Assembly: GCA_013373545.1 (NCBI GenBank)
Contig: JABXHQ010000101.1
Span: forward strand, 1 to 64,000
Source: Gammaproteobacteria bacterium
GTDB taxonomy: Bacteria > Pseudomonadota > Gammaproteobacteria > Enterobacterales > Kangiellaceae
Length of the DNA: 64,000 nt
Direction: 5' to 3'
Made by a program: the position numbers and the translations under genes. This document shows, piece after piece, positions 5,079 to 45,085 of this stretch (its first letter is position 1; each line of letters opens with the position of its first letter). Below the pieces are notes generated by a model. It searched no databases and was not told the DNA's origin. It saw only the letters and a list, made by a program, of their open reading frames with translations.

Positions 5079-6287
5079 TTAAAACAGTTCAATGTCTGCG
5101 CTATCGGCGACATCCGAAGTGTTTTGCATTTGTTCTTTTTCACGAGAAATTTTATCCACCACCCGGCTTTGACTTTCTACCGTACTTTGCAAGTGCACTA
5201 AAATATCTTCGAAAGAGGTAAATATGGTTTCCCCGGCATCCAACAAGGCAAGCGACTCTTCCACCGCATCATCGACGTACTTAATGACTCGCTCTTCTTG
5301 ATCTTCTTCTAGTCCCAGACGCTGGATAAATACTTGAAGCTCATACACCATTTTATGTAATCGCTCGCTTGCCTTTTGTTGATTACTTCCCAAGGAGTCG
5401 GTTAGTGAGCGCATCGTCATTTGAATCACTTCGAACGAGTGAATTAGCTCTTGTGCTTGGGTTAACACATTTTGCTGGGCTTCTATTTCCGACAACCGTG
5501 AATTCAAACAACCAATAATGGCCGGCAATAAATCTTTTATCCGTCCGTAACGATCAGGATCGTCAACCGGCATATTCAGCACTAGCAACGAAACATGCGA
5601 ATAATTCACTTGGGTACGCATTTTAAAATCAAAAAACCGTCCGCGTTCGCGCAAGACTTCTAATAGTTCACGCTCAATCGGTCGTGTGTCCCCTTCATAA
5701 GAAAAGAACTCTCGAACCTGATTCACCTCGGTCATAATGGTGGCTTTAAGATCTAAGGAGTTTAGTAAGTCGAAAGTACTCTGACATAACGCAGCCACGG
5801 TAACCAATGAGAATGAATGCTCGACAAACTGCATTACCCGTCCCAGCTCACTGCTGGTCGACATTGCCGTCATGACGGTCTTCTGAGCGCTTTGCAGATC
5901 ATTTTGAATACGCTGCAACTTTTGTTTGCGCTCGGTGAGTACTTTAACTTTTGATAACAACTCTTCCGGATCGAGTGGCTTAGAAATAAAGTCATCAGCG
6001 CCTGACTCGAAGGCTTTTATTCGCGTATCGATATCACTCGAGGAAGACACAAAGATAACCGAGGTTGTCGCTAAGTAGCCTTCGGCACCTAGCCGCTGAC
6101 AAATTTCGTAGCCATCAATACCCGGCAAATGTAAATCCAATAAAACAACATCCGGTTCAAAATCATCAAATATGGCGAATACAGCTTCGCCTGACTCGAC
6201 ACATTTTACCGAAAAGTCATCCATTAACATTCGCTCATGGGCCATTCGGACCATGGCATCATCATCAACCACTAGTACTTTTGACAC
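5079..6287 (-). CDS. Orphan response regulator with long coiled-coil output
   Basis: A 402-residue protein. Residues 1-125 are a receiver domain with the acidic triad (VVDDDAM), the phospho-acceptor Asp in LLDLHLPGIDGYE, SSSS in the switch position and Lys in FISKPLDPEE. A helical linker (about 115-150) and a mixed region with a GAF-like or undefined fold (about 150-270) follow, then a long Gln/Glu-rich coiled coil to the C-terminus. There is no HTH, GGDEF, EAL, HD-GYP or kinase motif, so the output is probably a protein-protein interaction. No histidine kinase is adjacent. It could join a phosphorelay or chemosensory-like array; this is inference. Confidence 0.8.
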   Translation of the reverse strand: MSKVLVVDDDAMVRMAHERMLMDDFSVKCVESGEAVFAIFDDFEPDVVLLDLHLPGIDGYEICQRLGAEGYLATTSVIFVSSSSDIDTRIKAFESGADDFISKPLDPEELLSKVKVLTERKQKLQRIQNDLQSAQKTVMTAMSTSSELGRVMQFVEHSFSLVTVAALCQSTFDLLNSLDLKATIMTEVNQVREFFSYEGDTRPIERELLEVLRERGRFFDFKMRTQVNYSHVSLLVLNMPVDDPDRYGRIKDLLPAIIGCLNSRLSEIEAQQNVLTQAQELIHSFEVIQMTMRSLTDSLGSNQQKASERLHKMVYELQVFIQRLGLEEDQEERVIKYVDDAVEESLALLDAGETIFTSFEDILVHLQSTVESQSRVVDKISREKEQMQNTSDVADSADIELF

Positions 6288-6409
6288 TAAGAATACACCT
6301 CATTATGCCTACAACTAAAGTTAGACAAATTTAGCGTAAATGCAAGTGTTTGAAATAAAAACAGAATGTAAGAAAATAATACTCACAGCGAGATATTTAA
6401 AGTAAAAGT

Positions 6410-6913
6410 TTAAGCGTTGGGTTTGCTTTGGCGCGCGGCCTTAATTTGTTGCCGGCGTTGGCGAAAGAAATTAGACAATAACTCAGCGCCTGCCGTCGCC
6501 ATTAAACCTCCATGCGACTCGACTTGATGATTGTGCGACGGGTGCTCGAGTAAACTCATCGCTGAACCACAAGCTCCGGTCTTTGCATCACTAGCGGCAT
6601 AGATTACACGCGCGATACGTGCATGAACCATAGCCGCGGCACACATTGGACACGGCTCGAGCGTCACATACAAGGTTAAATTTAATAAGCGATAATTACT
6701 TAGCGTTTGGCTAGCTGCGCGCAAAGCCATAATCTCAGCATGTGCGGTTGCATCGCTTAGCGTGATTGGTTGGTTATACCCTTCACCAACAATTTGATTA
6801 TCAAGGACCGCGACAGCGCCCACCGGCACCTCATTGTGCTCAGCGGCGCGTTCAGCGAGCACCAGTGCTCGCTGCATAAAATGATAATCCTGCTCGGTAA
6901 ATTCCATTGCCAC
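6410..6913 (-). CDS. tadA: tRNA-specific adenosine-34 deaminase
   Basis: A 167-residue zinc deaminase that converts A34 to inosine in the anticodon of tRNA-Arg(ACG). The catalytic HAE motif (AHAEIMAL) and the zinc-binding PCPMCAAAMVHARI motif are intact, and spacing and length match bacterial TadA. It lies 36 bases downstream of guaA on the same strand, as in many gammaproteobacteria, so it may be co-transcribed with guaBA. Confidence 0.96.
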   Translation of the reverse strand: MAMEFTEQDYHFMQRALVLAERAAEHNEVPVGAVAVLDNQIVGEGYNQPITLSDATAHAEIMALRAASQTLSNYRLLNLTLYVTLEPCPMCAAAMVHARIARVIYAASDAKTGACGSAMSLLEHPSHNHQVESHGGLMATAGAELLSNFFRQRRQQIKAARQSKPNA

Positions 6914-6949
6914 TCAACCAACCCGGTAAGGGTTACACTCCGGCGCCGG

Positions 6950-8527
6950 TTATTCCCACTCGATTGTCGCAGGCGGTTTTGATGAGATGTCGTAGGTTAC
7001 GCGCGAAATGCCATCGATTTCATTGATGATTCGATTTGAAACATGCTCTAAAAACTCATAGGGTAAATGTGCCCAACGAGCCGTCATAAAATCGATGGTT
7101 TCAACTGCGCGCAGTGATACAACGTAATCATATTTACGCGCATCCCCCATAACACCCACCGATTTTACCGGTAAAAACACCGTAAAGGCTTGAGATGTTT
7201 TATGATAAAGGTCGTGCTTGTACAACTCTTCAATATAAATAGCATCGGCGCGGCGCAATAGATCAGCGTACTCTTTTTTCACTTCACCTAAAATGCGTAC
7301 ACCAAGACCTGGTCCAGGAAATGGATGACGATATAACATGTCGTAAGGAAGTCCGAGTTCTAAACCAATTTTCCGCACTTCATCTTTAAACAATTCACGC
7401 AACGGCTCAACTAACTCAAGTTCCATGTCATCTGGTAATCCGCCAACATTATGATGCGATTTGATCACATGAGCCTTGCCAGTTTTTGCACCTGCAGACT
7501 CAATCACATCAGGATAAATGGTGCCTTGAGCCAGCCATCGCGCCGATTTTAATTTCTTCGACTCTTCTTCAAAAACTTCGACAAAGACACGACCAATGAT
7601 CTTACGTTTGTCTTCCGGATCATTAACCCCTTTAAGCTCATTTAAAAAGCGATCTTCGGCATCAACCCGTACTACGTTTAATCCCATATGTTTCGCGAAC
7701 ATGCCCATTACCTGGTCACCTTCGTTCAAACGCAATAAGCCGTTATCAACAAACACACAGGTAAGATTGGTACCAATGGCTCGATGCAATAAAGCGGCCG
7801 TTACCGAAGAGTCAACACCACCGGAAAGGCCAAGAATTACTTCATCATCGCCGACTTGTTGTTTAATGTGCTCTACCGCATCATCGATAATATTGCCCGC
7901 GGTCCACAAAGCATCACAACCACAAATACCTAACACAAAACGTTCGAGTACTCGGCCACCTTGTCGCGTATGAGTCACCTCTGGGTGAAACTGCACGCCG
8001 TAAAAATGACGCGATTCATCCGCCATTGCCGCAAACGGTGCATTACCACTTTCGCCAATACACGTAAATCCATCGGGTAATGCAGTGACTTTGTCACCGT
8101 GACTCATCCACACATCTAACAGACCTTCGCCATCTTCATTCGCGTGATCTTCGATACCTTTAAATAATTCAGAGTCACCAACATGCTTAACTTGAGCATA
8201 ACCAAATTCACGCTCTGTGGAGCCAGAAACTTCACCGCCCAATTGCGCCGCCATGGTTTGCATGCCATAACAAATACCTAACACCGGTACGCCTAAATTA
8301 AACACTACATCGGCTGCTCGTGGCGTAGTTGCCTCGGTCACACTTTCAGGACCGCCAGACAAAATAATGCCGTGCGGATCAAATTCGCGGATCGCCTCTT
8401 CGCTTAAATCGAACGGATACAGCTCGCAATAAACACCAATCTCCCGTACCCGTCGTGCGATTAACTGGGTGTACTGAGAACCAAAATCTAAAATTAATAT
8501 TCGGCTAGAATGAATGTCTTTGGACAT
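6950..8527 (-). CDS. guaA: GMP synthase (glutamine-hydrolysing)
   Basis: A 525-residue enzyme that aminates XMP to GMP with ATP and glutamine, the last step of guanine nucleotide synthesis. The N-terminal class I amidotransferase domain (about 1-205) has the nucleophile motif GICYGMQ and the QFHPEV His-Glu pair. The ATP-pyrophosphatase domain has the P-loop [11 protein letters not shown] near residue 235. The C-terminal dimerisation domain ends in the conserved KPPATIEWE. It follows guaB on the same strand with a terminator-like hairpin in the 103-base gap. Confidence 0.98.
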
Positions 8528-40234: not shown

Positions 40235-40402
40235 AGTTCAATTCCTGCTCAAAAAATCTACTCATTATCAGCCGTGTTGCAAGCAGCGCTCAATTAAGGC
40301 ATGTTAGCGCTAAAATTTGCTAGCAATAAACACGAGCTTTTGAAGGGGCATAATGGTACGCGAGGCCCTTGCTATAAGCAAGATAGAACAAAGAAAGGAC
40401 CC

Positions 40403-41674
40403 ATGGTGAAATCGACTCCTTTGACGCTCAAAATTCCGATTACCAACGTTTATGCTAATGGTGACTACACCATGGACGTATTAATCGGCAGTGAGCAACG
40501 AAAAGCTCGGGTGATCTTAGACACCGGCAGTAGCACTTTCGCAGTGCATCCGGTCAATTATTGCCCCGAAAGCGATCACTACCTTACCCCCACGCCGTAT
40601 GCTCAAGACATTACTTATGGGCTCGGTGGCTGGACCGGCCCTTTGGTCAAAACCGCAATAACCTTAAGCGGCGAATGCAGTCAGCGTGGACCGGCCCATA
40701 CCATCACCGCCGCCCAATCTCATCTTGCCGTAGCCAGCCAAGAGCAGCCCCATGCGTTTGCCGCTGCCGATGGCATTTTGGGTCTGGCCTATCATGGACT
40801 TAACAAGGCCTTTAATCTGCAAGACTATTTCGAAGCTCATCAAGTGACCCCTGCTGTGACTTTTCCTTGGCCATTTCCGGTACAGCCGACTCACCAGGCC
40901 ATCGCCGACTTTAAAAAATTTTTATGGCGCTATCAGGAGCAAGATATTCAGCCACTTTTTACTGAGTGGGAACAGCATGGGTATTGTGCCAACCGTTTTG
41001 CGTTTGTTACGCGTCGCTCCAGTGTCCACCACCGTGCCGCCGATCTAAGTACGCAAGCGCTGGAGCAAGATCCGCTGAACCAAGGTTACTTTATTCTCGG
41101 CGGCGGTGAAGAGCAGCCGCTCTATCAAGGTGAGTTTATTACCATTCCGGTGCACGACCATGTGTACTACAACGTTGAGCTGGCAGCGATTTCCGTCGCC
41201 AACTTAGCTCCGCGCTCGGCGCCACCATTGGCGGCTAAAGATGAGCACCTTTATCGCACCAATGCCATTTTAGATACTGGAGCCTCGGCCATCGTGTTGC
41301 CAGCCTCTCTCTACCAGGCATTGCTCGAGGACTTTTCTACCATAGATGAACGACTGGCCACGTGTATCAAAAATTACCCAGTCTTTAACGGACAAGAGCA
41401 AGGCATTGCAATTGCTGACATGATTGATTTGCCATGGCCAGATATTCAATTTTGGTTCCAAGAGGTTGCCGCCCCGCTGACCATCAGCGCAAAAGAGTAT
41501 TGGCAATTGAATGCCCCAGAGTTCGGGCAGGCCTCCTTTAAGCTGTTTTCGCAATTAGCCCATTGGCCCAATCAAACTATTTTAGGGCTACCCATATTTA
41601 ATCCCTACTTCACCATTTTTGATCGCGCAGCGCCGCCGCGTGGTCAAGTAAAATTTGCACCGCTTTATGATTGA
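40403..41674 (+). CDS. Pepsin-like (A1 family) aspartic protease, no signal peptide
   Basis: A 423-residue two-lobed aspartic protease. The two catalytic motifs are VILDTGSSTF (Asp near 40) and AILDTGASAI (Asp near 291). The flap ITYGLGGWTG (Tyr near 72) resembles the pepsin flap, and a hydrophobic-hydrophobic-Gly signature (DGILGLAY) is present. Bacterial pepsin homologues such as the shewasins of Shewanella are known but uncommon. No signal peptide or propeptide is visible, so it is predicted cytoplasmic, as reported for shewasin D (from memory). ATG 40403 follows AAGGA at 40395-40399; the frame continues up to 40301 without coding character. First gene of a six-gene plus-strand run and a candidate leader protease for the precursor at 43056 (inference). 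Confidence 0.88.
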   Translation: MVKSTPLTLKIPITNVYANGDYTMDVLIGSEQRKARVILDTGSSTFAVHPVNYCPESDHYLTPTPYAQDITYGLGGWTGPLVKTAITLSGECSQRGPAHTITAAQSHLAVASQEQPHAFAAADGILGLAYHGLNKAFNLQDYFEAHQVTPAVTFPWPFPVQPTHQAIADFKKFLWRYQEQDIQPLFTEWEQHGYCANRFAFVTRRSSVHHRAADLSTQALEQDPLNQGYFILGGGEEQPLYQGEFITIPVHDHVYYNVELAAISVANLAPRSAPPLAAKDEHLYRTNAILDTGASAIVLPASLYQALLEDFSTIDERLATCIKNYPVFNGQEQGIAIADMIDLPWPDIQFWFQEVAAPLTISAKEYWQLNAPEFGQASFKLFSQLAHWPNQTILGLPIFNPYFTIFDRAAPPRGQVKFAPLYD

Positions 41675-42188
41675 GCCCAGTCCACTTACCACCCCGCGGT
41701 TTTCCTTAATGCCATTGACTGAAGCGGACTTTGCGCTATACCAGTCACTATATCAATGCCCCTCCATTCAAGCATTGATTGGGATTTGCTTGCCACCAGC
41801 AGCTATTTTAAAAGCGTTTAATCAAACATTAAGAAAAGTCAGCCAGCAATGGCAAAACGCCATGCATTGGGTAATTTTCGATCAGCAACAAACAGCATTA
41901 GGCATCACCGCTTTGGTTGGCCAAGACAGCGTTGAGGTCGGAACCTTACTTTTGCCATCTGCGCAAAATTGCGGCGTCGCTAAAGAGGTTATGGGGTGTA
42001 CCATTGATTACGCTTTTCGCGAATTTAACAAAACTAAAGTATTTGCGTATTTTTGGCATCAACATATTGCATCTTTACGTTTGGTACAGAGCTTGAACTT
42101 TTACGTTGATCAACAGACTCTACATCAATCGCGTCCGCTGCCCTCTTGGTATTGCGAGAAAATCAACAAAAATAGAGTAAGTGTTTGA
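41667..42188 (+). CDS. GNAT N-acetyltransferase (RimJ/RimL-like)
   Basis: A 173-residue acetyltransferase-fold protein. The opening LTTPRFSLMPLTEADFALY is typical of RimJ/RimL-type GNATs, as is the C-terminal motif NKTKVFAYFWHQHIASLRLVQ, although the acetyl-CoA loop (VEVGTLLLPSAQNCGVAKEV) departs from the usual Q/RxxGxG/A. ATG 41667 lies eight bases inside the end of the protease gene, implying translational coupling. The family modifies N-terminal or side-chain amines of peptides and proteins. A role in tailoring the borosin-like peptide is possible but unproven. The weak acetyl-CoA motif leaves activity uncertain. Confidence 0.78.
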   Translation: MIEPSPLTTPRFSLMPLTEADFALYQSLYQCPSIQALIGICLPPAAILKAFNQTLRKVSQQWQNAMHWVIFDQQQTALGITALVGQDSVEVGTLLLPSAQNCGVAKEVMGCTIDYAFREFNKTKVFAYFWHQHIASLRLVQSLNFYVDQQTLHQSRPLPSWYCEKINKNRVSV

Positions 42189-42246: not shown

Positions 42247-43041
42247 GTGGCGCGATTACTTTGTGTGGGAGTGGGAATTGAGCTCGGAGCTCACTTAACA
42301 CCTGCAGCGAAAAAAGCCATTGCGAGCAGTGATGTTGTGCTGTACGCCGCCTCCGACAGCCTATTTGAAGCTTGGATGGCAGAACTACACCCACAAGCGC
42401 ATTCATTGCAATCCTTTTATGCCCCGGGCAAATCCAGAAAAACATCTTATCAAGAGATGACCCAATTTATTCTGCAAACGCTTGAGCAAAATACTACCGT
42501 TGCAGCCGTTTTTTATGGTCACCCCGGAGTGTTTGTGCAGCCAGCACGACTCGCCATGGCCGCAGCTATTAAGCAAGGTCATGAAGCGATAATGCTGCCG
42601 GGAATTTCGGCCGAAGATTGTTTATATGCTGACTTAAACATCGATCCAGGTCGCTACGGCTGTCAAATGTATGAAGCTTCACAATTTCTTTTTTATCAGC
42701 GTAACTTCGATACCGCCGCTTACTTAATTTTATGGCAGATTGCCTTAGTCGGCGATCAATCGCATACGCGCTTTCAAGAAAATAAAGAAAACGTTCAGCT
42801 GTTTGTTGAATACTTGCAGCAACATTATCCAACAGAACATGAGGTAATTGTCTACGAAGCGCGCGCCAGTTACCTTGATGACTTACGTAAAGTGACGATT
42901 CCTCTAGCACAGCTCGCCACGGTTGAGCTCACTGAAAAATCAACTTTAGTAATACCTCCAGCGACAAAAATGCAACGGAATAAATTTTTTGAGCAACAAC
43001 AGAAAAACATCAATAACTTAACTTTGATTCACTCTCGTTAA
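42247..43041 (+). CDS. Split-borosin peptide-backbone alpha-N-methyltransferase (SonM-like)
   Basis: A 264-residue SAM-dependent methylase of the tetrapyrrole-methylase fold. It resembles SonM of the Shewanella oneidensis split-borosin system along its length: start RLLCVGVGIEL, FYAPGKSRKTSYQEM, FYGHPGVFVQPARLAM, PGISAEDCLYADLNIDPG and MYEASQFLFYQ. Tyr58, Arg64, Tyr68 and Tyr90 occupy the positions of the SonM/OphMA catalytic Tyr-Arg-Tyr set and the YGHPG tyrosine (mapped from memory). Such enzymes methylate main-chain amides of a separate precursor. GTG 42247 gives the SonM-like N-terminus, with AGGGGA at 42231-42236; a TTG at 42226 would add seven residues. The next gene, 14 bases on, encodes the probable substrate. 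It is not a porphyrin enzyme by context: no haem or cobalamin genes are near. Confidence 0.88.
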   Translation: MARLLCVGVGIELGAHLTPAAKKAIASSDVVLYAASDSLFEAWMAELHPQAHSLQSFYAPGKSRKTSYQEMTQFILQTLEQNTTVAAVFYGHPGVFVQPARLAMAAAIKQGHEAIMLPGISAEDCLYADLNIDPGRYGCQMYEASQFLFYQRNFDTAAYLILWQIALVGDQSHTRFQENKENVQLFVEYLQQHYPTEHEVIVYEARASYLDDLRKVTIPLAQLATVELTEKSTLVIPPATKMQRNKFFEQQQKNINNLTLIHSR

Positions 43042-43055
43042 CCATGGAGAACACT

Positions 43056-43304
43056 ATGAAAGCTGCACTTAAAATAATAGAAAAATTGGGACTCGGTGAG
43101 ACTTTAAGCGACGCAGATAAAGCATCGGTATCAGACGAGCTGATGCAAATGTTAAAAGAGCGTAACAAACGTTTAGTAGAAAAATACCTCGACTTAACAC
43201 CGGATATTCATTGTGTGTTATTACCAGCTGATGACGACGAAGAAGAGCAAGAAGAAACTCCTAACCAAGAACCTGAAAAAGACACAATTGTTGCTGTTAG
43301 ATAA
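43056..43304 (+). CDS. Probable split-borosin precursor peptide
   Basis: An 82-residue protein directly after the methyltransferase. Residues 1-47 are predicted helical (ALKIIEKLGLGE..., ELMQMLKERNKRLVEKYLD), a plausible methyltransferase-binding domain. A short hydrophobic segment IHCVLLPA (51-58) follows, then a strongly acidic run (DDDEEEQEE, 59-67), a Pro/Glu linker and a terminal hydrophobic TIVAVR (77-82). Either hydrophobic segment could be the methylated core; VLLP sits where SonA has its LVIS core. Start: GGAG at 43046-43049 lies six bases before ATG 43056, so the ATG at 43044, which overlaps that site, is unlikely. The stop TAA overlaps the ATG of the next gene by one base. It does not look like SonA outside the general plan. 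The call rests mainly on context and architecture. Confidence 0.72.
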   Translation: MKAALKIIEKLGLGETLSDADKASVSDELMQMLKERNKRLVEKYLDLTPDIHCVLLPADDDEEEQEETPNQEPEKDTIVAVR

Positions 43305-45085
43305 TGAAAATATTAGCTTTAACATTATTACTGATCGGTAGCGGAGGCCTTTGGGCCTCCGAGCCGGTCAGCTCTTTACTGCAAACTGCGGATGAAATTC
43401 GTCTATCCGAGCCGCAAAAATTTTCCGCGATTCTGCGCGATATTGCTCAGCAAATTGACTCACTCAGCTCAGAGCAACGTTACTTTTTTGAGTATTTGAT
43501 GGCTTATGAATCAGCCTTAAAAGGTGATTCTGAACGCGCCATTAACACTTATAAACATGTATTTAAAAATGCGTCCGATCAAGATTTAATTTATCGCGCT
43601 AGTTATTCCATTTTGAATGTACTGGTTATTAATCGACGCTGGCGTGAAACGCCGCAGTACCTTCAGTACATCAATGACAACTACACATCGATTAGCTCTG
43701 AAGAAATCAAGGCCACCGGACTAGTCGCCGTTGCATTATTTTATAATCATTTAGGCAACTTTGATAAAGCGCGTGACTATGGCTTAAAAGCAATCGCCGA
43801 TATCAAAGCAGACAACGTACTGTGCACGGGTTACCAACAGTTAGCTCACTCTGAATTAAAGTTAAATTTATTAGCCTCGAGTGCAGCGATCCTTAGCGAC
43901 GGAATGAGCGCTTGTGAGCGTTCAAGCAAGCAATTAATTGCTTATATGATCAACTTATACCAAGCCACCGCGCTATTCAAAGAAGAACAATATGATGCAG
44001 CAACCGCTCTGCTACAACGACATCTCAGCCGCGTTGATGCCTCAAACTATGTGCCGATTCAATCGGAATATTATGCGTTACTCGCACAACTCTCTTTTGC
44101 TACAGGTAACGTCAGCGGTGCCATTGCTTACGCACAAAAAGTTATTAATTCAAACAATCAGTCGCACAATACTGAAGCCTTGGTTAAAGCACTAAAAATT
44201 ATGGCTGACGCAACCGCAATCCAAGGCAACTTAACCGACTCTATTGTTTGGCTAAAACGCTATGCTGAAACAGACAAAGCATTTTATGATCAACTAACCG
44301 CTGAGAACCTTGCATTTCAACTGGCCACTCATGAAGTAATTGAAAAAGAAAACCAAATCAAGTTACTCAATAAAGAAAACGAAGCGTTGAATTTAGAGCG
44401 TGATTTATCGTTGCAAGAAGCGCAAAACAAAACCTTGATGATTATTTTACTTATCTTGATCATTGGCTTTACATCGTTTTGGGCTTACCGCACCAAGAAA
44501 ACCCATGTTAAATTACGTAAGCTCGCAGAATTTGATTCGCTAACCGGAATTGCCAACCGCCGTCACTTCACTAAAGAAGGCGAAAATACGCTCAAGATCA
44601 ACCGTTCAAGAGGTCAAGCGGTTAGCTTTATTTTATTTGATCTCGATAAATTCAAAGCCATTAATGACCGATACGGCCATCCGGTTGGCGACTGGGTGCT
44701 ACAACATGTACCGATTCCGGTTAAAAAGATCATTCGCAAAATTGATATTTTTGGCCGTATGGGCGGTGAAGAATTTGCCATTTTATTACCCGGTTGCGAG
44801 CTCGATAAAGCACGCGAAATTGCCGAGTCAATACGCCTTGGTTTAATGGAAATCAACTGCGAAGAAACCGGGCACAATTTTAACATCAGCGCGAGCTTTG
44901 GTATTACGGTTAGTCGCGTATCGGGATATGAATTTGAAGACTTAATGAAACATTCTGATGACGCTCTGTACGAAGCCAAGCGTGAAGGTCGCAATCGTAT
45001 TCACGTGTACTCGATGCCGCCAACTGAGTCTGCCGTAATAAGCAAGCAAGCCAATACTGCTTCTGACCAAACTACTGAGGCATAA
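43304..45085 (+). CDS. Membrane diguanylate cyclase with periplasmic TPR domain
   Basis: A 593-residue protein. Signal peptide MKILALTLLLIGSGGLWAS, then helical TPR-like repeats (about 30-330), a coiled coil (about 340-368), one membrane helix (about 373-392, LMIILLILIIGFTSFW) and a cytoplasmic GGDEF domain. The active site is RMGGEEF near residue 485, with RKID five residues before it as a c-di-GMP inhibitory site. Both suggest an active, feedback-controlled cyclase. Its ATG overlaps the precursor stop (TAATG), so translation of the two is probably coupled. It may sense a periplasmic signal; a link to the peptide product is only inference. Confidence 0.92.
   Translation: MKILALTLLLIGSGGLWASEPVSSLLQTADEIRLSEPQKFSAILRDIAQQIDSLSSEQRYFFEYLMAYESALKGDSERAINTYKHVFKNASDQDLIYRASYSILNVLVINRRWRETPQYLQYINDNYTSISSEEIKATGLVAVALFYNHLGNFDKARDYGLKAIADIKADNVLCTGYQQLAHSELKLNLLASSAAILSDGMSACERSSKQLIAYMINLYQATALFKEEQYDAATALLQRHLSRVDASNYVPIQSEYYALLAQLSFATGNVSGAIAYAQKVINSNNQSHNTEALVKALKIMADATAIQGNLTDSIVWLKRYAETDKAFYDQLTAENLAFQLATHEVIEKENQIKLLNKENEALNLERDLSLQEAQNKTLMIILLILIIGFTSFWAYRTKKTHVKLRKLAEFDSLTGIANRRHFTKEGENTLKINRSRGQAVSFILFDLDKFKAINDRYGHPVGDWVLQHVPIPVKKIIRKIDIFGRMGGEEFAILLPGCELDKAREIAESIRLGLMEINCEETGHNFNISASFGITVSRVSGYEFEDLMKHSDDALYEAKREGRNRIHVYSMPPTESAVISKQANTASDQTTEA

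Follow-up and report, generated by a model that had tools for sequence, protein, structure and literature searches.

We propose that a five-gene operon in the 64,000-nucleotide stretch of Kangiellaceae DNA analysed here (hereafter the window) makes and uses a backbone N-methylated peptide, with a pepsin homologue processing the precursor and a TPR protein sensing the system. We put the probability of this reading at roughly 0.6. The genes follow one another in the order pepsin, GNAT, methyltransferase, precursor and TPR-GGDEF (Table 1), with spacings of -8, +58, +14 and -1 bases. The pepsin stop and the GNAT start thus overlap by 8 bases, and the last base of the precursor stop is also the first of the TPR gene. 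No transporter gene was found between the pepsin and TPR genes in the window, and a scan for promoters and terminators gave counts no higher than in shuffles. Sequence comparison establishes the protein families, the homology of the precursor leader, the tight coupling of the genes and the co-inheritance of the pepsin with this class of precursors; we infer methylation, cleavage, acetylation and sensing by this operon. The preliminary description of this DNA had picked out the methyltransferase and the precursor, but it missed the pepsin, acetyltransferase and TPR-GGDEF genes of the same operon. Neighbour group 4, whose sequences we take to be PepB aminopeptidase and come nearly all from the neighbourhood of one genus, was not counted in the system.

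Table 1. Genes of the operon and segments of the precursor, in window coordinates
Feature	Position	Strand	Evidence or remarks
Family-A1 pepsin homologue, marine-bacterial (shewasin) type	40301..41674	+	Pfam Asp PF00026, E=2.4e-18; possible later start at ATG 40403
GNAT acetyltransferase (Acetyltransf_3 type)	41667..42188	+	Pfam PF13302, E=1.3e-13; AlphaFold2 pLDDT 94
Borosin alpha-N-methyltransferase, SonM-like	42247..43041	+	GTG start, 264 aa; SonM PDB chain, E=1e-56; Y58/R64/Y68/Y90 invariant
Probable split-borosin precursor, 82 aa	43056..43304	+	Class profile: SonA chains are top PDB matches, E about 8e-4; hhalign 97.1%
Precursor residues 1-44, helical binding domain (BBD-like leader)	43056..43187	+	AlphaFold2 helices to residue 44; SonA alignments
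Precursor residues 51-58, predicted hydrophobic core, (I/V)VC-hhh-PA	43206..43229	+	Column counts, 80 precursors
Precursor residues 59-82, acidic C-terminal tail	43230..43301	+	11/24 Asp/Glu
Membrane TPR-GGDEF protein	43304..45085	+	Signal-like N-terminus, TPR, transmembrane near 377-395, GGDEF with GGEEF

The methyltransferase and its precursor

The methyltransferase and the 82-residue ORF behind it almost certainly form a split-borosin pair, as the preliminary description had proposed; protein family, catalytic residues, gene order and precursor homology all point in this direction. The three SonM motifs quoted there are present in the translation. In a PDB search, SonM is the top known match, covering residues 1-245, and OphMA follows with E=2e-42. 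As for other families, the broad TP_methylase model (E=7e-19) is the only one above the Pfam cut-off. Among the NCBIfam models, the best match reaches 39 bits where 525 would be required, and those for cobalamin and haem methylases score at most 19 bits. An identity as a haem or cobalamin methylase was rejected on the basis of these scores, which are far under the cut-offs.

Tyr58, Arg64, Tyr68 and Tyr90, already singled out as catalytic positions, are conserved in all 148 distinct aligned sequences, the window's included. In the PDB-search alignment, the first three pair with SonM Y58, R67 and Y71 across a gap in the side-clamp loop, which is three residues shorter in the window, and Tyr90 pairs with a SonM tyrosine. 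The three SonM residues are described as stabilising the deprotonated amide (PMC8429565). Homology to SonM and OphMA and equivalents of the catalytic Tyr58/Arg67/Tyr71 are thus both found, as in split (type IV) borosins. In a quick tree of 136 methyltransferases, 61 of the 63 rows of one branch (SH-aLRT 96) go with the window's precursor class, and three changes are needed to place this class on the tree. The set omits duplicate loci (L134-L190) and 20 regions fetched later, and it is biased to the window's class because the rows added from the genus Shewanella (g11) were the best-scoring ones.

The precursor begins at ATG 43056, 14 bases past the methyltransferase stop, at the distance and with the length first described, and most relatives have their start Met at the aligned position. 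An alternative in-frame ATG at 43044 would give a precursor of 86 residues. The AlphaFold2 model (mean pLDDT 76.5, pTM 0.43) has helices at residues 2-12, 19-23, 27-34 and 38-44, with no more secondary structure beyond; the helical N-terminus and short hydrophobic stretch noticed at the outset are recovered in these helices and in the predicted core. A family of 80 distinct precursors, the window's included, shares a helical leader, a PD(V/I)VC-hydrophobic(3)-PAED(D/E) core and an acidic tail, and this pattern occurs mostly behind the methyltransferases closest to the window's. The core Pro is found in 67/80 precursors, Ala at the next position in 67/80 and Cys four positions before the Pro in 63/80, and the tails are 14-59 residues long with a median of 44% Asp/Glu. 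Several loci harbour two or three precursors in tandem.

Profile comparisons indicate homology between the leader of the window precursor and the binding domain of SonA. In a PDB HMM search with the class profile, the top seven matches, with E from 8e-4 to 3e-3, are precursor chains from SonM-SonA entries, some of these chains being labelled LigA domain-containing protein. The best of these alignments spans SonA 1-53, and the match after these seven has E=0.045. The hhalign probability in Table 1 was obtained over 60 columns against 19 SonA-type precursors, 2 of the 21 found being omitted as near-copies. In view of this homology, the early remark that the precursor does not look like SonA holds for the core and tail only, the first 50 or so residues being SonA-like. 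Searches by other routes gave little: phmmer with the window precursor alone returned nothing convincing, Foldseek with the modest-confidence model returned neither SonA nor any significant match, and no convincing family came up for the 80 precursors in Pfam or NCBIfam. The weak matches were to an NCBIfam NHLP-clan RiPP family (1/80, E=1.6e-4) and to Pfam Nif11 (8/80, best E=0.005). The possibility of a chance ORF was rejected in view of the conserved family and the leader homology.

The window pair resembles SonM/SonA, the type IV split borosin system described in Shewanella oneidensis (PMC8429565), in its separate enzyme and precursor, its catalytic Tyr and Arg residues and its helical leader, which as a borosin binding domain is a further mark of split borosins. 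The two systems differ in that pepsin and GNAT genes lie upstream in the window, and in their cores: the SonA core ends the protein, whereas 24 residues, 11 of them acidic, follow the hydrophobic stretch of the window precursor. In omphalotin-type OphMA, the methyltransferase is homologous but fused to its precursor. By their distance from the leader, as for SonA L63 and I65, V54 and L56 might tentatively be considered as candidate methylation sites.

The pepsin and acetyltransferase genes

The window pepsin has two Asp-Thr/Ser-Gly motifs, ILDTGSST and ILDTGASA, the second with Ala, and in the PDB it matches BACE-2, proteinase A and pepsin best. That Ala position is occupied by Val, Cys or Thr in 12 of the 45 relatives in which both motifs were detected, and the catalytic Asp pair is retained in 60/60 full-length pepsins aligned. 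In the pepsins of L063 and of genus g5 (L147-L158), the second motif is DCG instead of DTG, with the Asp kept. A simple hydropathy scan found no hydrophobic stretch at the N-terminus, as in a protein without a signal peptide.

Foldseek with the GNAT model returned many GNAT matches, the best with E about 1e-10. Spermidine, bleomycin, PA3944, ribosomal-protein and lasso-peptide acetyltransferases match with similar E-values, and the substrate can therefore not be read from the fold. MccE and the lasso-peptide acetyltransferase 9iy3 share this fold and a distant sequence similarity, but the window GNAT is no closer to them than to polyamine or ribosomal-protein acetyltransferases. Its alignment comprises the window sequence and 58 of the 72 references found.

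Bacterial pepsins are rare proteases. Homologues were reported in 2009 (PMC2761423), and two of them, shewasins A and D, were characterised: they work best near pH 4 in vitro, shewasin D is described as cytoplasmic, and their function in vivo was still to be understood according to the 2016 paper (PMC4814920). The words operon, neighbo(u)r, methylase and methyltransferase are all absent from the main text of that paper. Four of our Shewanella pepsin matches lie inside the gene coordinates given by Rawlings and Bateman for S. denitrificans, S. amazonensis, S. loihica and S. sediminis (PMC2761423). The S. denitrificans gene is named Sden_0804 in the shewasin D paper (PMC4814920), and the homologue from S. 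amazonensis, a species with one gene in the 2009 table (PMC2761423), is shewasin A. The genes for shewasin D (L224) and shewasin A (L226) lie directly upstream of a GNAT gene, a methyltransferase gene, three precursors and one precursor of the class, respectively, and a TPR gene. Because the matches fall in the published coordinates, we conclude that both shewasin genes head the same operon order as in the window. The window pepsin is 43% identical to each of the two over the aligned region (G204, G219), belongs to the same family, shares with them the two Asp motifs with Ala in the second and, as reported for them, has no evident signal peptide (PMC4814920, PMC2761423). As the same gene arrangement surrounds both characterised bacterial pepsins, it suggests that shewasins A and D act on this class of modified peptides. 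S. denitrificans harbours three tandem class precursors at L224 and two at L225, with differing cores.

Co-occurrence of pepsin and precursor class across genomes

The distribution of the pepsin makes its functional coupling with this precursor class highly probable. Our survey covered 198 genomes, that of the window among them, from the genus, family and order; methyltransferase matches were present in 68 of them and pepsin homologues in 32. From around these methyltransferase matches, 100 regions were fetched, contig-fragment matches of G017, G025 and G038 being left out. By a hand reading of the profile matches, the pepsin and the precursor class occur together in 29 genomes; the class occurs alone in 2, the pepsin alone in 3 (these being 73-86% complete) and neither in 164. 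A Fisher test of this table ignores kinship, and contrasts within a genus therefore weigh more. Genus g5, in which the pepsin gene lies apart from the borosin locus, has 11 genomes with both, 1 with the pepsin only and 8 with neither.

Linkage is the rule in g11, which the published gene coordinates identify as Shewanella and in which 40 of the 129 genomes have a pepsin. In 39 of the 40, a borosin methyltransferase gene lies downstream on the same strand, with 548-974 bases between match edges, and in the fortieth (G280) a GNAT gene comes next and then the contig ends. The 39 include one pepsin split over two frames (G201) and one reduced to a remnant of 112 codons (G221). At the latter locus (L235), the remnant precedes GNAT, the methyltransferase and two precursors devoid of PAED (e.g. 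VVGMMILTEDD), as if protease and core had decayed together. In the 136-row set, with the lean described above, a pepsin gene is found upstream at 42/61 loci of the window's precursor class and at 0/75 others, and a GNAT gene at 55/61 and 3/75. The remaining 72 of the 75 other loci thus have neither gene upstream, and the three exceptions have GNAT only. A draw of 369 genomes across the taxonomic class yielded one pepsin genome besides the window's, G681, from a different family. On a contig separate from the pepsin, it harbours a methyltransferase, a GNAT, a precursor with the core ICGLSPAEPDD and a TPR gene, the GNAT gene sitting between those of the methyltransferase and the precursor.

The association has exceptions. 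The precursor class and GNAT are present in G051 and G094 (85% and 93% complete), in which no pepsin was detected. Four loci (L225, L229, L230 and L242) have class-like precursors and neither pepsin nor GNAT adjacent to them, and three of these are in genomes devoid of any pepsin match (G220, G225 and G316). The cores at the second S. denitrificans locus and at the loci of G220, G225 and G316 are altered (e.g. ICCAQAVPDEEEP); to judge from these four loci, a small number, the pepsin and GNAT could belong specifically with the PAED core. At L043 and L045, methyltransferases with class-like scores occur with precursors that are odd or unmatched by the class profile, and with no pepsin. In several genera, the pepsin gene is not adjacent to the borosin locus, as in g5, G002, G004, G009 and G117. 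Three further loci, L231, L232 and L233, were rejected as class members, being of SonA type or without a precursor match. The window's genome encodes a second pepsin homologue (L221, G000:C193:9595-10800), 44% identical to the first and near a contig end; the gene ahead of it is presumably an Lrp/AsnC-like regulator.

Processing, sensing and alternative readings

The last gene of the operon encodes a protein with a GGDEF domain (Pfam E=3.9e-44) and weak TPR matches. Its hydropathy profile shows a start resembling a signal sequence and a single strongly hydrophobic segment ahead of GGDEF, and for this reason the TPR part is probably periplasmic. A TPR protein is encoded at most 700 bases downstream of the methyltransferase at 32/32 loci of the window's precursor class, while among the 75 other loci it lies downstream at 50, upstream at 16 and on neither side at 9. 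The outputs at the class loci are GGDEF (30/32) or HisKA (2/32). At 47 other loci, in an alignment that omits 3 of the 50 (L112 and L129, incomplete, and L073, a two-methyltransferase locus), GGDEF is found in 8 and a histidine-kinase ATPase domain in 18. A constant TPR part with changing outputs would fit the usual pattern of receptors, and the recurrence of the protein beside borosin loci suggests a role in signalling; we give even odds to its being the receptor. Cys 174 and Cys 204 (window numbering) are invariant in the 32 TPR proteins of the class and perhaps form a disulphide in the sensor part.

In the mechanism that we favour, the SonM-like enzyme would bind the helical leader and methylate backbone amides in the hydrophobic core, V-L-L ahead of Pro-Ala. 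The pepsin-type protease would then cut the precursor in the cytoplasm, thereby freeing the product from its leader; capping of this product, or of the N-terminus created by the cut, may be the task of the acetyltransferase. At the membrane, the TPR-GGDEF protein would sense either the product or the system's state and change c-di-GMP. We lean towards the pepsin being the processing protease rather than a target. A rough cut-site score based on published specificity singles out no unique site in the precursors, the best position collecting 21/80 of the weighted top sites. Several observations count against the model: the lack of a single preferred cut site; a TPR part that appears to be periplasmic, with no evident export signals in the precursor and pepsin and no transporter gene in between; the optimum of the shewasins near pH 4, which sits badly with the cytoplasmic location of shewasin D (PMC4814920); and the exceptions mentioned above, in which no pepsin was detected in the genome (G051, G094), none is adjacent to class-like precursors (L225, L229, L230, L242), class-like methyltransferases go without one (L043, L045), or the pepsin gene lies elsewhere, as in several genera. 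It is tempting to extend the model to the whole class, as a form of ribosomal peptide signalling: the cytoplasmic pepsin would release the N-methylated peptide, and a TPR receptor in the membrane, its output exchangeable between diguanylate cyclase and histidine kinase, would read it. This extension is possible but rather doubtful; if true, bacterial pepsins would gain a native substrate and split borosins a signalling role.

Alternatively, the N-methylated peptide might regulate or inhibit the pepsin instead of being its substrate. Shewasins have no prosegment, and therefore an adjoining peptide, hydrophobic and protease-resistant, could keep the cytoplasmic enzyme in an inactive state. The resistance of N-methylated peptide bonds to proteolysis and the close pairing of the pepsin with the precursor class would both fit. 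Nevertheless, pepsin prosegments are basic, unlike the acidic tails of these precursors, an inhibitor would need neither a helical leader nor an acetyltransferase, and other split borosins do without a pepsin, as at the 72 loci with neither gene upstream. We consider inhibition improbable. The same low probability applies to a division of labour in which the pepsin takes no part in making the product: it would remove failed or unused precursor, or act on some other target, and the operon would serve stress signalling through the output of its GGDEF protein. TPR proteins with varied outputs do occur beside borosin loci that lack an adjacent pepsin, in the downstream and upstream positions counted above, but the pepsin is tightly linked to one precursor class only.

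Finally, the genes might share a neighbourhood with no direct biochemical link, pepsin and GNAT being passengers of the borosin genes. The genomes in which the pepsin is unlinked to the borosin locus (g5, G002, G004, G009 and G117) could be taken in this sense. However, the unlinked g5 genes still co-occur by genome and are both missing in the same congeners, co-occurrence is seen again in the distant family of G681, and the full-length pepsins have all kept their catalytic Asp pair, which makes mere passengers very unlikely. Relative to these alternatives, processing of the precursor by the pepsin remains our preferred reading.

The presence of a pepsin beside a borosin class offers a testable partner for each, a native substrate for the former and a processing enzyme for the latter. 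The title of a 2023 paper reportedly announces a split-borosin final product. In 2021, none had been associated with split borosins (PMC8429565). None of the open papers searched, a set that excluded the main borosin mining papers (2022-2023), links borosins with pepsin or with tetratricopeptide, and in wider literature searches the word borosin was absent among the matches listed. The main text of a review on RiPP leader proteases contains none of the words aspartic, aspartyl and pepsin, and as far as this review goes a pepsin in RiPP maturation would therefore be a new type of protease. That the precursor class and its neighbours are new is plausible rather than proven.

Two other borosin loci deserve mention. 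At L032 of Streptomyces ureilyticus, a long frame (5817-7680) scores 399 bits against the methyltransferase, above most single-domain relatives, and a second methyltransferase frame is nearby; it is perhaps a tandem-domain borosin enzyme. With the profiles used, this locus gave no pepsin, GNAT, TPR or precursor match. The window's genome harbours a second split-borosin pair at L033 (G000:C114:9557-22291, methyltransferase at about 5915-6783), with a SonA-type precursor. This pair lies ahead of a TPR membrane protein gene, similar neighbour groups are found at L114, L123, L124 and L125, and the genes directly ahead of it are presumably rnfG and rnfE.
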